From Propionicicella superfundia DSM 22317 (GTDB lineage: Bacteria > Actinomycetota > Actinomycetes > Propionibacteriales > Propionibacteriaceae): DNA of 64,000 nucleotides. Location of the stretch: assembly GCF_000423465.1 (NCBI RefSeq), contig NZ_AUIA01000012.1, positions 62,001-126,000 of the forward strand, read 5' to 3'. The position numbers and the translations under genes are program-made. Under the pieces are notes generated by a model, which was not told the DNA's origin, ran no database searches, and saw only the letters and a program-made list of their open reading frames with translations. How positions within the stretch are numbered: the first letter of the stretch is position 1; every line of letters begins with the position of its first letter. This document shows, piece after piece, positions 1-50,064 of the stretch.

Positions 1-439
1 ACGTCAGACCCGTCAGAGACGCCGTCGGGCTGCCGTCGAGGTAGATCGTGAAGCGCAGCGCGGCGAACACGTCGTCGGTCACCGGATCGGGATCGTAGAG
101 CTGGATCGACAGGTCGCCGGCCACGCCGGGGTCACGATTGAGCACCGTGGCGTCGAACACGACGGGATCGGTCTCCGACAGCGCGGTCCCGGAGGTGAGC
201 GACAGGACGACCGCCGTGGCCCGCGTGTCGGCGTCCTGCAGCACGTCGTCGTCGTCGTGGATCGCGATGTCGAACCTGTTCGGGTTGCCGACGCCGGAGC
301 CCGGCGAGCCCGTGCCGAGGTTGACGACGGCATGGTCGGTGAACGCCGCGCTCGTGCTCGCGACGCCGAGGACGATCAGGGCCGAGGCCGCCAGGACGAG
401 GCGCGTCACACCGCGGGGACGATGGGTCTTGTCGGTCAT
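1..439 (-). CDS. SipW-type signal peptide secreted protein, 3'-truncated by window edge
   Basis: Reading from ATG at 439 gives an open frame of 146 codons that runs off the window at base 1, so the C-terminus is missing. The N-terminus has basic residues, a hydrophobic segment ending in STSAAFTD, then a region with NPNRFDIAI. This is the pattern of SipW-dependent (TasA/camelysin-like) signal peptides and matches the two genes upstream, which carry AAAFTD or AAAITD and NRFNIQV or NTFDIMV. The start overlaps the stop of the upstream gene by 4 bases (ATGA), so the two are translationally coupled. A surface or filament subunit is inferred from the family. The dedicated signal peptidase, if present, would lie beyond the left edge. 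Confidence 0.72.
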   Translation of the reverse strand, partial: MTDKTHRPRGVTRLVLAASALIVLGVASTSAAFTDHAVVNLGTGSPGSGVGNPNRFDIAIHDDDDVLQDADTRATAVVLSLTSGTALSETDPVVFDATVLNRDPGVAGDLSIQLYDPDPVTDDVFAALRFTIYLDGSPTASLTGLT

Positions 440-1056
440 GCGCTGGTCCCCTCGAAGTGGAATTGCACATCGGTGCTGGCGAGCTGCCACCGGTTGTCCA
501 CCGAATCGGGCAGTTCGATCACGACGTCCAGCAGCAGGTGGTCGCCCGAACTCACCGGGTGCGACCACGTATAGCTGGTCAGGTCGGGGGCGGGAACCCG
601 GTCGAAGAGCACCGTGCTGCCGTCGCGGACCGTGAAGAGAAGCTGGTCGTAGAGTTCGACGAAGTTCCCGGTCGCCGGGTCGGTCTCGGACCCACGTGGC
701 TGGGGGTCGGAGATGGTCAGCGTCATGTGACTCGCCAGGCGGGGGCTCGCGTTCTTGGCGGCCACGCGCACGTCGAGCGAGCTGCCCGGGGCCATCACGA
801 TGTCCGTGTCGCCGTTGGCGAGCCTGATGCGGAAGGGCTCGACGTCGCCTTGCTCCCAGACGTCCTCGGCGGGTGTCCAGGTTCGCGTGCCCGCCTGGCC
901 CGCGACCATGATGTCGAAGGTGTTCGACGATCCGTCCAGCACCACGTCGACGTCGCTGCGATCAGTGATCGCCGCGGCTGTCAGCAGCGCCCCGACGGCG
1001 ATGATGCTCCCGGCGGCGGCCGTCAGTCGGCGCCAGCCTGTCCATGACCTGCTCAT
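436..1056 (-). CDS. SipW-type signal peptide secreted protein (206 aa)
   Basis: The second of three tandem genes for TasA-like secreted proteins. The N-terminus has Arg residues, a hydrophobic stretch of about 18 residues ending LLTAAAITD, then NTFDIMV, the same arrangement as its neighbours. The rest is beta-rich without Cys, and no catalytic motif is visible. ATG at 1056 is preceded by GAGAGGGG at good spacing. It overlaps the downstream gene by 4 bases and is separated from the upstream gene by a strong hairpin (1097-1137). A minor subunit or accessory surface protein is inferred only from family and context. Confidence 0.72.
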   Translation of the reverse strand: MSRSWTGWRRLTAAAGSIIAVGALLTAAAITDRSDVDVVLDGSSNTFDIMVAGQAGTRTWTPAEDVWEQGDVEPFRIRLANGDTDIVMAPGSSLDVRVAAKNASPRLASHMTLTISDPQPRGSETDPATGNFVELYDQLLFTVRDGSTVLFDRVPAPDLTSYTWSHPVSSGDHLLLDVVIELPDSVDNRWQLASTDVQFHFEGTSA

Positions 1057-1086
1057 GGTCGCGTTCCCCTCTCTGCGGATTCGCGT

Positions 1087-1137
1087 CGCCTCTCATGAGG
1101 CGGTCCTGGGCGGGGGCCACCTGCCCAGGACCGCCTC
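1087..1137 (-). promoter_or_regulatory. Attenuator-like alternative hairpins between the two secreted-protein genes
   Basis: A perfect 15-bp stem (1097-1111 with 1123-1137, 11-base loop) lies 14 bases after the stop at 1152. The arm nearest the downstream gene contains CGCCTC in the RNA. This can alternatively pair with GAGGCG just beyond it (1087-1092), forming a second, mutually exclusive 6-bp hairpin. No U-run follows, so this may be an attenuator, a processing site or a 3'-stabilising stem rather than a classical terminator. It could set a higher level for the promoter-proximal gene than for the two downstream ones. Confidence 0.5.
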
Positions 1138-1151
1138 GGGAGGAGGCTGGC

Positions 1152-1781
1152 TCAGGGAGCGACGGACGTCGCGTCGAAGTGCGCCTGAACGTAGGACACC
1201 TGGCCCTGCAGCGCGTTGTTCGCCGCTTCGCTGCCCTGGTCGGGCAGGGTGATCGCCACCGTGAGGACGCCACCGTCACCGGTGACCCAGGTGCCGAGGT
1301 CGTAGTTGACGACCGTGTCCTGGTCCACGTTCGTCACCAGCGGGGTGCCGTCGAGCTCGATCGTGTAGCGCAGCGCGGCCGCGATCTCCGCATCGGACGT
1401 GTAGCCCGGGCGGTCCTGCAGAGAGAAGGCGATGGCGGCGCTCAGCACGGGGCTCTCGTTGCGGAACGGGATGTCCACCGTGACCGTGTCCCCGGGGGTG
1501 ATGAGGTCGGCGCCGGGCACCTTGATGTTGACGCCCTCCGTGGTGTTGGCCTCCTGCCACTCACCCGGGATCGGCGTGCCGTCGGCCGCAGTGTTGACGA
1601 CCTGGATGTTGAACCTGTTGTTGCCGCCGATGCCGGAGTCGTCGGTCCCGTTGCCCAGGTTCAGGTTTGCGAAGTCGGTGAACGCGGCGGCGGTGGCCAG
1701 TGCTGCCACCGCCACGAGGGTGCCGACCGCAGCGAGCAGGCGATTCAGCCCCCGCTTCCGATTGCGCCGTTGGTTGATCAT
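1152..1781 (-). CDS. SipW-type signal peptide secreted protein, promoter-proximal (209 aa)
   Basis: The first gene of the three-gene locus. I chose ATG at 1781 because AAAAGGGGAGCAGCA precedes it; an in-frame start at 1823 has no such site. The N-terminus is very basic, followed by a hydrophobic segment ending ALATAAAFTD and then NRFNIQV, the hallmark of SipW-dependent, TasA-like exported proteins. The mature part is Asp/Thr/Val-rich and Cys-free, as expected of a beta-sandwich matrix or filament subunit. A hairpin directly after its stop suggests that it is expressed more than the downstream pair. Function is inferred from the signal-peptide type and from the gene cluster. Confidence 0.72.
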   Translation of the reverse strand: MINQRRNRKRGLNRLLAAVGTLVAVAALATAAAFTDFANLNLGNGTDDSGIGGNNRFNIQVVNTAADGTPIPGEWQEANTTEGVNIKVPGADLITPGDTVTVDIPFRNESPVLSAAIAFSLQDRPGYTSDAEIAAALRYTIELDGTPLVTNVDQDTVVNYDLGTWVTGDGGVLTVAITLPDQGSEAANNALQGQVSYVQAHFDATSVAP

Positions 1782-2130
1782 TGCTGCTCCCCTTTTATTT
1801 CTCGATGACGATAGGCGGGCCACGAGGGCTTGCCGTCACGCGAACGGATTCGGGAGCGAAGCGACCCGCAGGACGGTTGCAGGTGTCCAGGACATCGCTG
1901 CTCGGCCCTTTGTGAGGCTTCTGTTCGTTGGCTCCCGATCGGGTGTCATTGTCAAGCGCATCCCCCCGCACTCACCGTGCAGGCCCCCGAACATTGAGTG
2001 CAGCTCGGAGGACCATGAGTGCGTGGGCGGCGCTGTGAGGCGGTTGTGTGAGCGGAACCTCGATGGGCGTTGAGTGCCCTCTCCCCGTCGCCCATCGGCC
2101 TCCTTTTCCGGCGTGAACCACGAACGACGC
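1782..2130. promoter_or_regulatory. Intergenic region with four TGAGTGC heptamers
   Basis: The 349 bases between the LuxR-type regulator and the secreted-protein genes hold no convincing gene. The heptamer TGAGTGC occurs at 1995-2001, 2016-2022 and 2071-2077, and in inverted orientation (GCACTCA) at 1968-1974. The promoter of the leftward secreted-protein genes must lie here, so these are candidate regulator-binding sites. I did not find a clear -35/-10 pair. Confidence 0.35.
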
Positions 2131-4653
2131 TCAGAGCTGAACCGAGCGGAAATCGTCGCGTCCGGCCAGGCGGAGCTTCTTCAGCGAGCGGTGGACGTGG
2201 TTCTCGATGGTTCTCCGACTGACCCCCAGCAGGGTGGCGACCTCCTGGTTGCTGCGCCCCTCCGCCACGAGACGGACGATCTCCTTCTCACGGCCCGAGA
2301 GAACAGTCGTCCGGCGATGGTGTGTCAAGGTCGCCAGCCACTGAGAGAGGTCCTCGCCGACCAGGTCGGCCCGCTCGCGCTCACCGAGAGGTGCCTCTCC
2401 CCGCTTCCGGCGTTCGCCGTCCACGAAGTCCAGCACGGCTGCCGCCAGCGGGGGGGACACGCTCAGCGGCGCGTCACGCGCAGCGTCCGTCACCGCTGCG
2501 AGGTCGCCACCGGCCAGAGCCTCCTGGACCGCGACGATCCGCGCCATCAGCGGTGCCGGGCGAACGTCCGCCACGGCCCGGATCGCCTCGATCTGCCGCG
2601 GGCTCGGGATCGCCGAGAGCTGGCTCCAGACCACCAGCGCATTGTGCAGGCGGCCCTCACGGGCGAGCCGCTCACCCTCGCTCCAGATCAGATCGTCGGC
2701 CTCCTCGTCCCTGGCGTCGAGCCGTGACAGGTGCGCCCTCGCCATCTCGCGCGGGGCATCGACCGTCCTCAGATGGGTGACCGGGAGGCGCTCCAGCTCC
2801 TCGGCGAGGAGGCGGCTCGCCCCGGCGCTCTCGTCGTTCATCGTGTGCGCCGCCGCGAGGATCAGGAGGTGCTGGTAGAACCCGCTTCCGACCGGTCCCG
2901 CCGGTCCGAGACGAAGCACCGCGAAGACCAGCGAGCCGGCCGCTTCGTTCATGCCCATCGCGACCAGACTCTGCGCCAGGCCGACCGCATAGACCCGGAT
3001 ACCGGTCTGGTCGAGGTCGTCCAGAGCCTGCGCGAGGCGCTCCCGGCTCGCCGAGAAGGACTCGTGCACGCGCCCGAGGGCGAGCAGCACCTTGTGGTAC
3101 ACCCCGTCGAGGAAGGTGCACATGTCGCCGAGAACCCATTCGGGACGCAAGGCCGGATCCGACAGGCGCAGGGCCAGATCGAATCGTCCGGATTCGTGCA
3201 GCGCGGTCGCTTCGAGCACATAGCCCAGGGAGCGCGTCGGCTCCTCGGCCGCCGCCGACAGCGGAATGACGGAGGCCAGGTCGGCATCGCCCTGCGGCGT
3301 CGGCGCCGACGCGAGGACGGCGCGGACGATCGCGTTCACCCTCTCGATCGGCCCGTCGTCGTCCTGATTCTGGGCGGCGAAGTCCTCCCACTCGGGGGTG
3401 TCCTCACCGAGCCATTTGATCCAGCGCACCTGCAGCAGGCGGAATCTCTCCGTCAGGCCCGCGTCTCCGTGCTCCCGCGTCGAGGAGAAGACCTCGCGGG
3501 CCAGCTCTCTCGTCGGACGCTGCAGGAGGATCCCGAGATAGTCGACGGCGTCCTCGACGCTGCGCGAGCGCCGCCACCGGTCGCGCGCCTCGACCTCCTG
3601 GCGGTGCGAGACGTCCTGGACCATCGTCATGATCTCGAGCGCCCGCCTGCGGAACTCGCCGCGGTGCTCGGCGTCGGGCGACAGCAGCAGACCGAGCAGG
3701 TCGGGCGGTCCACCGATCCGGTCGCCGGCGGCGCCTGCACCGAGGTCCAGCCCTTCGGTGTCCGACTCGACCGCCCGGGAGCGCAGCGCAGCGGCGAGGG
3801 CGGGCGGGCTCACCGACATCACCGTGTGGGGAGGTCTGCCGTGTGCGATCACCCGATGTCTCCGCACCAGCCGCTCCAGGGCTTCGGGAGGGATCAGGTC
3901 GGACAGCTCCGACGGGCTGGCCGGCCCCATCACCGACAGCGCCACGAGCCCGCTCACGTCCGAGGCGGACAGCCGCGCGCAGAGCAGGTGGGCGACAGGA
4001 TCCAACGGGATCGCCGAGACGTCTCCGGTCAGGCTCCACACGCCGTCCTCCAGCCGGATCACGTCGGCGACCCGACCGGCGTCGAGGACGGCTGCCGCGA
4101 CCGAAGGAAGCCCGGCCGACTGCGCCAGGAGCGACGAGACCAGACGGGCCTCCACCGGCCCACCGAGTCTCTCCTCGACATGAGCCATCATCTCGGAGTA
4201 CCCCATGGCAGGCACCCGGATCTCGGCCGGCCCACGGCTCGCCACCAGTCTGCCCAGATGCGGATCCCCATGACGCACCAGGTCGAGCGCCGTCGTGGCG
4301 ACCAGCAGGGCGTGTCCACGCCGCAGTGTGCGGGACAACTGCTCGACGGCACCCGGGCTGAACTCGCTGAGGTCCTCGACGAGGACCACGGCGCGCCCGC
4401 CGGGGCGCGGCACATCGATGTCGCGTTCGGCTCGCCCCGGCCTCTGCGCGGCGCGAGGCGTCGCTCCGGCCGTCCCGTTGCCCATGTCGTCCAGGTCCAG
4501 TTGACGAGTCACGAACCCCTGGGCCTCTGCGACCCCCGCGACCTGACGCAGGAGGGCGGATCCTTGAAACCCGTCGTCGCACCGGATGAGGACGTCCCTG
4601 CCGGACTCCAGCCAGCGCACCGCGGTTATCGACGGGCTCAGCTCATCGCTCAT
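2131..4653 (-). CDS. LuxR-type (LAL-like) transcriptional regulator with degenerate P-loop ATPase domain
   Basis: A large regulator of 840 residues from ATG at 4653 (MSDELSPS), preceded by GGAGGG at a loose spacing; the frame is open for 66 more codons upstream. The C-terminal ~60 residues are a LuxR HTH (LSGREKEIVRLVAEGRSNQE, then RRTIENHVHRSLKKL). The N-terminal third has a STAND/MalT-like NTPase layout: a position corresponding to Walker A reads IRCDDGFQGSALLRQV instead of GxxxxGK[ST], while a Walker-B-like AVVLVEDL remains. The middle is helical, TPR-like. ATP binding is therefore doubtful. It is co-oriented with and directly upstream of the secreted-protein genes, so regulation of that locus is a reasonable inference. 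Confidence 0.75.
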   Translation of the reverse strand: MSDELSPSITAVRWLESGRDVLIRCDDGFQGSALLRQVAGVAEAQGFVTRQLDLDDMGNGTAGATPRAAQRPGRAERDIDVPRPGGRAVVLVEDLSEFSPGAVEQLSRTLRRGHALLVATTALDLVRHGDPHLGRLVASRGPAEIRVPAMGYSEMMAHVEERLGGPVEARLVSSLLAQSAGLPSVAAAVLDAGRVADVIRLEDGVWSLTGDVSAIPLDPVAHLLCARLSASDVSGLVALSVMGPASPSELSDLIPPEALERLVRRHRVIAHGRPPHTVMSVSPPALAAALRSRAVESDTEGLDLGAGAAGDRIGGPPDLLGLLLSPDAEHRGEFRRRALEIMTMVQDVSHRQEVEARDRWRRSRSVEDAVDYLGILLQRPTRELAREVFSSTREHGDAGLTERFRLLQVRWIKWLGEDTPEWEDFAAQNQDDDGPIERVNAIVRAVLASAPTPQGDADLASVIPLSAAAEEPTRSLGYVLEATALHESGRFDLALRLSDPALRPEWVLGDMCTFLDGVYHKVLLALGRVHESFSASRERLAQALDDLDQTGIRVYAVGLAQSLVAMGMNEAAGSLVFAVLRLGPAGPVGSGFYQHLLILAAAHTMNDESAGASRLLAEELERLPVTHLRTVDAPREMARAHLSRLDARDEEADDLIWSEGERLAREGRLHNALVVWSQLSAIPSPRQIEAIRAVADVRPAPLMARIVAVQEALAGGDLAAVTDAARDAPLSVSPPLAAAVLDFVDGERRKRGEAPLGERERADLVGEDLSQWLATLTHHRRTTVLSGREKEIVRLVAEGRSNQEVATLLGVSRRTIENHVHRSLKKLRLAGRDDFRSVQL

Positions 4654-49987: not shown

Positions 49988-50064
49988 GGGCCTATAGCTC
50001 AGTCGGTTAGAGCGCCGCCCTGATAAGGCGGAGGTCACTGGTTCAAGTCCAGTTAGGCCCACCA
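49988..50064 (+). tRNA. ileT: tRNA-Ile (GAT anticodon)
   Basis: The cloverleaf is complete: acceptor GGGCCTA/TAGGCCC, D arm GCTC/GAGC, anticodon stem CCGCC/GGCGG around CTGATAA, T arm ACTGG/CCAGT, discriminator A and encoded CCA. It reads AUC/AUU codons. Immediately downstream begins the accessory island, and the usual neighbour tRNA-Ala is not present, consistent with use of this tRNA's 3' end as an integration site. Confidence 0.98.

Follow-up and report, generated by a model that had tools for sequence, protein, structure and literature searches.

A candidate operon for a wall-anchored TasA-type surface fibre in Propionicicella superfundia and related loci in Actinomycetes

What is built by the genes at the very beginning of a 64,000-nucleotide stretch of the Propionicicella superfundia DSM 22317 genome (positions 62001-126000 of contig NZ_AUIA01000012.1, here contig C5; this whole stretch is called the window)? 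A first-pass annotation had described three tandem genes with SipW-dependent signals, here named subA, subB and subC, and just upstream, in the same orientation, a LuxR-type regulator gene (luxR1). TasA-type proteins form biofilm fibres in Bacillus, and in Bacillus subtilis sipW lies in a tapA-sipW-tasA operon. Based on gene content and predicted structures, we consider it fairly likely that the three genes stand at the 5' end of an operon encoding a wall-anchored, TasA-type surface fibre held together by donor strands.

The three genes are indeed minus-strand open reading frames (ORFs) in which a hydrophobic signal is followed by A-x-[FI]TD, the junction motifs being AAAFTD, AAAITD and AAFTD. 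The regulator lies on the same strand and carries a C-terminal GerE/LuxR helix-turn-helix (HTH) domain. The NRF-type mature start that had also been proposed is seen in SubA (NNRFNIQV) and SubC (NPNRFDIAI) but not in SubB (SNTFDIMV). The window's genes are the start of an eight-gene minus-strand run, subA-subB-subC-anchor-rcc1-sub4-sipW-luxR2, which continues over the left edge (Table 1). From subA onward the intergenic gaps are 95, -4, -4, -4, 8, 4 and -11 bp; six of the seven junctions overlap or measure at most 8 bp, the remaining one being the 95 bp 3' of subA, and for this reason LuxR2 appears to be co-transcribed with the operon. The 349-bp gap between luxR1 and subA suggests that luxR1 is probably its own transcription unit and need not share the operon transcript. 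The promoter of the operon probably lies in this spacer; a scan of the part around subA (window 900-2400) showed no sigma-70 promoter-like site.

The signal peptidase, which had been expected just outside the left edge, is present about 2.8 kb left of it (contig C5 58749-59168, minus strand). It is a SipW/ER-type (endoplasmic reticulum-type) signal peptidase I that matches TIGR02228 with 74 bits against a cut-off of 51.85, and its SGSMEP, VTHR and GDAN motifs give the Ser/His catalytic layout of these peptidases. Of 31 SipW rows drawn from the related loci, 29 have the serine motif [SG]GSM-P and 30 have TH[RK]. The Bacillus SipW model NF046067 stays below its cut-off (59.5 of 190). The genome holds two other SipW loci. 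On contig C10 (L016, L098) the peptidase gene stands with genes for a TIGR04089-type substrate (76.5 bits) and a beta-helix protein; a luxR1 paralogue lies on either side, and farther out are a sortase-type surface protein and another RCC1-repeat protein. On contig C1 (358883-361032; L015 6883-9032) a protein with a SipW-type signal precedes the peptidase gene and another exported protein follows it; no full-length LuxR1-type regulator was found on that contig.

The likely substrates of the peptidase are paralogues, SubB, SubC and Sub4 being 34%, 28% and 38% identical to SubA, and Sub4 bears a signal of the same kind as the other three. For the NCBIfam model of the SipW-dependent signal, TIGR04088 (cut-off 19 bits), SubC reaches 13.2 to 15.9 bits and nothing is reported for SubA, SubB or Sub4, so that such genes are easily overlooked by this model. 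Three paralogues, a fourth one leftward and recurrence in 24 loci of other genomes make this gene set more than a chance assembly of SipW signals. These loci (L numbers below) were found in a wider scan in Leucobacter, Microbacterium, Arthrobacter, Sanguibacter and Oerskovia and in metagenome-assembled genomes (MAGs) of Microbacteriaceae, Micrococcales, Leucobacter and Propionibacteriaceae, and they are not all independent, three being from one MAG while some other strains give two. An anchor, an RCC1 protein, SipW and at least three subunits occur together in 20 of the 24 loci (21 of 25 with the window). As for the incomplete ones, L063, L073 and L079 end at contig ends, and L081 has two subunit-type genes and sipW near a contig end, the L052 contig of the same genome holding RCC1, Sub4 and a further subunit. 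The usual order, judged by stop positions since some labels stem from over-long ORFs, is SubA-SubB-SubC-Anchor-RCC1-Sub4-SipW; as exceptions, RCC1 precedes Anchor in the two Microbacterium loci and closes the row in L076 and L080, and Sub4 is missing from all three copies in one MAG. In L070 (Arthrobacter sp. Hiyo8) subA and subB form a single ORF and the LuxR gene is fragmented, which may be a sequencing error.

Within the family, a four-subunit profile finds matches in 8 of 198 genomes, and below 1e-20 only in this genome and one other genus. A SubA profile run against 394 genomes of the class, with at most eight candidates scored per genome, returned this genome and two weak matches, from which the module looks rare and patchy. 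A tree of concatenated SubA, RCC1 and SipW (20 of the 25 loci, all except L063, L070, L073, L079 and L081; 724 columns) rejects a single Propionibacteriaceae clade (approximately unbiased test, p 1.4e-4), with L080 far from the others. Leucobacter loci stand in several places and the two Leucobacter luti clusters lie apart, a scatter that makes transfer or old duplication possible. One L. luti strain has two diverged fibre clusters (L067 and L077), one with a sigma factor and the other with a LuxR regulator. The window's own copy branches with the three from a single Propionibacteriaceae MAG (support 63); its horizontal transfer was weighed but is not claimed here.

Can such subunits form a fibre? 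The mature SubA was modelled in AlphaFold2 with a 23-row alignment (22 of the 24 loci and the window, without L070, where subA and subB are one ORF, and L078, where subA is labelled Sub4), giving a predicted local distance difference test (pLDDT) score of 87.2. In a Foldseek search of the PDB the model ranked the TasA fibre 8aur first (E 8.5e-5) and the Pyrobaculum bundling pilus 7ueg second (E 5.7e-4); these are the only matches below 1e-3, with chaperone-usher pilins next. In VIA comparisons 8aur was aligned with Z 9.1 over 144 residues (root mean square deviation 3.9), followed by PorA (8.3), TasA 5of1 (8.0), the PapG pilin domain (7.8) and 7ueg (7.7). The TasA fibre is the best fold match of the SubA model, yet it is not far above the others. 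The TasA-type resemblance proposed for these proteins thus holds at the level of the fold but not of the sequence, where neither PDB nor Pfam gives it. In the TasA fibre the N-terminal strand of one subunit completes the next subunit (PMC9674648). The SubA model has no secondary structure in residues 1-25, the first 20 having a pLDDT of 55-61, and the N-terminal residues are well conserved. A disordered N-terminus is what would be expected of a donor strand modelled without its partner.

A different picture is seen in the Anchor. It has an ordinary-looking signal peptide, no N-terminal extension and a short aligned mature start (DLI..TP..V.I.APAPG); its model begins with strands at residues 7-10 and 14-17, whereas SubA has its first strand at 26-31. 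The relation to the subunits is detected by hhalign (Anchor to SubB, 96.5-96.8%), and in VIA the model (17 of 21 anchors, L005, L074, L078 and L080 being left out; pLDDT 80.5) has TasA 5of2 and 5of1 at the top with Z 8.9. At the other end, a sorting motif of the [LI][PA]xTG type is found in 17 of 21 anchors and another LxxTG in 2 of 21, with a basic tail in all 21. The Anchor of this genome has the features of a sortase substrate, namely a motif (LAFTG), a transmembrane (TM) helix and a basic tail, and scores 25.2 bits against NF058582, just under the cut-off of 27. The genome encodes six sortases, none of them on contig C5. When the anchors were scanned by script for a SipW-like motif downstream of a hydrophobic stretch, 4 of 21 were flagged: two have it inside the domain, one (L068) near the mature start and one (L077) at the signal junction. 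Judged by model and motifs, the Anchor is a TasA-like protein with a sortase-type tail.

The RCC1 protein, a repeat protein of the beta-propeller type, is the counterpart. Its RCC1 repeats match PF13540 with 33 bits (cut-off 22) and PF25390 with 81 bits, the latter below its cut-off of 150. It has a SipW-type signal, with [FY]xD directly after the signal core in 20 of 22 proteins by script (L052, one of the two that the script missed, shows FTD on visual inspection), and between signal and repeats lies a stretch such as YVDTTHARTASLQV. We infer from sequences and models that Anchor and RCC1 protein are complementary, since the Anchor could only accept a strand and the RCC1 protein could only donate one. 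One may argue for the reverse, a TasA-like fibre in which the RCC1 protein would be the base or a side subunit and the Anchor would act as no more than a chaperone, like TapA or CapP of Bacillus. TapA has a complete fold and only donates a strand, the same logic as that of the RCC1 protein here (PMC10151520), and CapP is described as a wall-associated chaperone that acts without sortase (PMC13082335). But the Anchor does not have the donor strand of TapA, and an LxxTG- or IxxTG-type motif is present in 19 of 21 Anchors and the basic tail in every one, whereas [LIV][PA]xTG is missing from the final 45 residues of all 21 RCC1 proteins; we find this arrangement rather unlikely.

Another feature of the operon is a long hairpin directly 3' of subA. 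The 95 bp at this place (window 1057-1151) have a folding energy of -58.7 kcal/mol and also come up as a self-complementary match. With a stem of at least 12 pairs within the first 60 bases 3' of the stop codon as the criterion, subA has a hairpin behind it in 18 of 24 loci (window counted, L070 left out), against 0/22 for subB, 0/15 for subC, 1/21 for anchor, 0/21 for rcc1, 3/18 for sub4 and 1/22 for sipW, 5 of 119 places in all; these counts omit flanks shorter than 60 bases and loci in which no gene carries the label in question (several loci have subC under the name SubA). Dinucleotide shuffles meet the same criterion at 1-5% over the genes, and at 1.1% for subA. The structure of the stems is kept while their sequence varies between genera. 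No T-tailed terminator was found around subA (window 900-2400), and so the hairpin is not a classical terminator. Its specificity for subA suggests that SubA is probably the subunit needed in excess.

A mechanism that would fit these data starts with SipW, which would cleave the signals and free the N-terminal donor strands, whereupon the strand of each subunit would insert into the groove of its neighbour. SubA would form the shaft, and SubB, SubC and Sub4 would be minor or adaptor subunits. The Anchor, having a groove but no strand to donate and being linked to peptidoglycan by a sortase, would be the base, and the RCC1 protein, which would donate a strand and has no groove, would close the far end as a tip adhesin. 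The hairpin would hold the subA message in excess over those of the minor parts, and LuxR1 and LuxR2 would switch the operon.

Several results weigh against a TasA-type fibre. SubA, SubB, SubC and Sub4 have no match above cut-off in Pfam or NCBIfam, including the TasA/CalY family of Pfam (Peptidase_M73), and a PDB sequence search with the 23-row SubA profile did not match TasA. The Foldseek TM-scores of SubA are modest (0.51 and 0.43 by query) and PorA, an unrelated chain, comes within 1 Z of 8aur. For the Anchor model Foldseek gave no match below 1e-3, and in VIA the unrelated SIDT1 ties with TasA (Z 8.8). Two of 21 Anchors are without a sorting motif and two have a non-standard one; the L077 anchor has a SipW-like motif (ASAVSD) at the signal junction, and the RCC1 protein of L072 is without [FY]xD. 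The hairpin is missing in 6 of 24 loci, including all three copies of one MAG. One explanation is that the proteins are secreted or wall-bound singly, as enzymes, lectins or matrix proteins, and are merely processed by SipW without making a polymer. The lack of a TasA sequence match in Pfam and PDB would agree with this, as would the sipW gene of contig C10, whose TIGR04089-type and beta-helix neighbours are not TasA-like by Pfam. Yet it would leave the near-constant order of four paralogous subunits without a reason, as well as the SubB-related anchor that lacks the N-terminal extension, the fibre form of TasA as the best match of SubA, and a hairpin specific to subA; we therefore regard it as improbable, and prefer the fibre.

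Another question is whether LuxR1 belongs to this system. It was annotated as a LAL-type regulator (large ATP-binding regulator of the LuxR family), of which the LuxR HTH stands, but there is no Walker A motif: GK[ST] is absent at the P-loop place, which reads CDDGFQGSAL, and no NTPase domain is matched in Pfam. Several relatives have GxxGSGR[ST], with R in place of K. As the P-loop is lost, "large ATP-binding" does not fit LuxR1. The genome has three full-length LuxR1-type regulators (all 85 candidates scored), the present one and the two flanking the C10 SipW locus, and their distances to a SipW match are 5.0, 2.9 and 6.8 kb, all below 7 kb. In the 198 family genomes, where at most four candidates were scored per genome so that 34 regulators is a lower bound, 8 of at least 34 lie within 10 kb of SipW where 0.53 are expected, a number reached in 0 of 200000 simulations, and SipW is present in 15 of 20 genomes with the regulator against 51 of 178 without it (Fisher p 7e-5), although related genomes and the C10 paralogues are not independent in these statistics. 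The link of LuxR1 to the fibre operon is thus supported by position. The opposite view, that LuxR1 is an unrelated neighbour without a role in the operon, can point to the 349-bp gap before subA, to regulators that are upstream, downstream or absent across the 24 other loci, to relatives that also adjoin other surface-protein genes, and to the 26 of at least 34 family members that are not within 10 kb of a SipW match, though many of these are on short contigs; against the clustering near SipW and the co-occurrence by genome, we hold it to be doubtful.

A regulator of another kind is found in part of the loci. Among all 25, a LuxR1-type neighbour is found in 11 (in pieces in L070), an extracytoplasmic function (ECF) sigma factor beside subA in 8 (Leucobacter, Microbacterium and one Microbacteriaceae MAG), both in none, and neither in the stretch covered in 6; the chance of this mutual exclusion would be 0.003 if the loci were independent, and the LuxR counts leave out short or low-scoring matches in L060, L065 and L076. 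Seven of the eight sigma proteins have an ectodomain, that of L072 being short and without one. In each of the five proteins scanned with Pfam, sigma regions 2 and 4 were recognised, in some cases below cut-off, and two of the five gave a weak zf-HC2 match. Their C-termini carry LA[AS]TG (three), LVTTG (one) or LPPSG (one), each followed by a hydrophobic stretch and basic residues; no such end motif was found in the L067 and L068 proteins. The sigma ectodomains, as a group, are homologous to the Anchor: hhalign gives 98.2%, and 97.6% (E 4e-12) without the sorting signal, against 0.3% or less in 20 column-shuffled controls, and a trimmed-ectodomain profile matches 19 of 21 anchors (E 1e-10 to 5e-5). 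Singly, five ectodomains score 18-42 bits against a sigma-free anchor profile, and L058 and L063 only 6-7 bits; higher scores came from an iterated profile, which may have taken sigma rows in. Four whole sigma proteins matched 313 of the 394 class genomes (three candidates scored per genome) and, among the matches listed, alignments span the sigma/zinc-finger/TM part and end before or early in the ectodomain. This means that the body is ordinary and that the search says little about the ectodomain elsewhere. The layout of sigma factor, zinc finger, TM helix and ectodomain is shared with the ECF52 sigma factors such as SCO4117 (PMC5826349, PMC8999054), whose ectodomain is proline-rich with a carbohydrate-binding domain, whereas the present one is related to the Anchor, with an LxxTG/LPPSG-like motif, TM helix and basic tail in 5 of 7. 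What sets these sigma factors apart is that their ectodomain is related to the presumed base subunit of the neighbouring fibre cluster. The natural reading, suggested by this homology, is that it may sense free subunits. A polar, sortase-anchored donor-strand fibre with a strand-accepting base and a strand-donating propeller tip, in which, in one lineage, a membrane sigma factor with a base-derived ectodomain would sense unassembled subunits by accepting their donor strands as a substitute for the base and so couple fibre gene transcription to assembly, is offered here as a tentative proposal.

The coordinates of these features are collected in Table 1. Elsewhere in the window there is a tRNA-Ile gene (49988-50064), and from about there to the window end the G+C content is somewhat lower (0.64-0.68).

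Table 1. Features of the gene run and of the sigma factor genes at related loci. L005 is the stretch left of the window plus an overlap; window coordinate = L005 coordinate minus 12000.
Feature	Coordinates	Strand	Description
LuxR1	window 2131..4653	-	840-aa LuxR-type regulator, large N-terminal part, degenerate P-loop; PF00196 E 4e-12
Spacer LuxR1-subA	window 1782..2130	-	349 bp; probable fibre-operon promoter region, based on the gap between genes
SubA	window 1152..1781	-	carries a SipW-type signal; mature protein begins FTDFANLNLG at 1682; probably the major shaft subunit
Hairpin 3' of subA stop codon	window 1088..1147	-	long, G+C-rich, without T-tract; stem of 17
SubB	window 436..1056	-	second TasA-like subunit, AAAITD signal; hhalign SubA-SubB probability 100%
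SubC	window <1..439 (complete: L005 11843-12439)	-	third TasA-like subunit, AAFTD signal; hhalign SubA-SubC probability 99.8%
Anchor	L005 11229-11846	-	outside window, left
RCC1 protein	L005 9952-11232	-	outside window, left
Sub4	L005 9278-9943	-	fourth subunit paralogue; outside window, left
SipW	L005 8659-9273	-	signal peptidase; outside window, left
LuxR2	L005 7143-8669	-	last gene of run; overlaps sipW
Sigma factor with ectodomain	L058 8216-9883	-	adjoins subA
Sigma factor with ectodomain	L059 3811-5259	+	adjoins subA
Sigma factors with ectodomain	L060, L063, L066, L067, L068		adjoin subA

How does this system compare with those already described? With the B. subtilis operon it shares a SipW-type peptidase together with several substrates in one operon. 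Further common features are a TasA-like fold predicted for the main subunit, an N-terminal segment that appears suited to strand donation, and an accessory protein with one half of the donor/acceptor pair (PMC9674648, PMC10151520). The present system differs in having four paralogous subunits, an anchor of the sortase type, a propeller protein with RCC1 repeats, regulators of other kinds and a hairpin after the main subunit, and no sequence similarity to TasA was detected. The CalY/TasA/CapP system of Bacillus cereus likewise has several TasA-like subunits and a wall-associated accessory protein, but it is described as sortase-independent, whereas the Anchor here has a sorting signal (PMC13082335). 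The Pyrobaculum bundling pilus, the second-best fold match of SubA, is archaeal. Proteins of the TIGR04089 alternate-type signal peptide family (RER_14450) also have a SipW-type signal beside a SipW gene, but the present subunits do not match TIGR04089. In the literature, searched with a coverage that was without most subscription papers, so that absence in print is not shown, no title on SipW, TasA and Actinobacteria named an actinobacterial TasA-type system, and neither did those of wider searches or on sigma factors with LPXTG. RCC1 together with SipW was not found there, "SipW-dependent" was found only for Bacillus, and "alternate signal-mediated exported" was not found.

TasA-type fibres are understood from work on Bacillus, and archaea have a structurally related one. 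The loci described here point to a version conserved in actinobacteria, for which a wall anchor and a tip are predicted and none of whose four subunits is named above cut-off by Pfam or NCBIfam. If this is true, Gram-positive bacteria would have an appendage with strand exchange in the shaft and sortase at the base only, and the relation between the anchor and the sigma factors suggests a direct way, open to testing, in which a cell could monitor the condition of its fibre.

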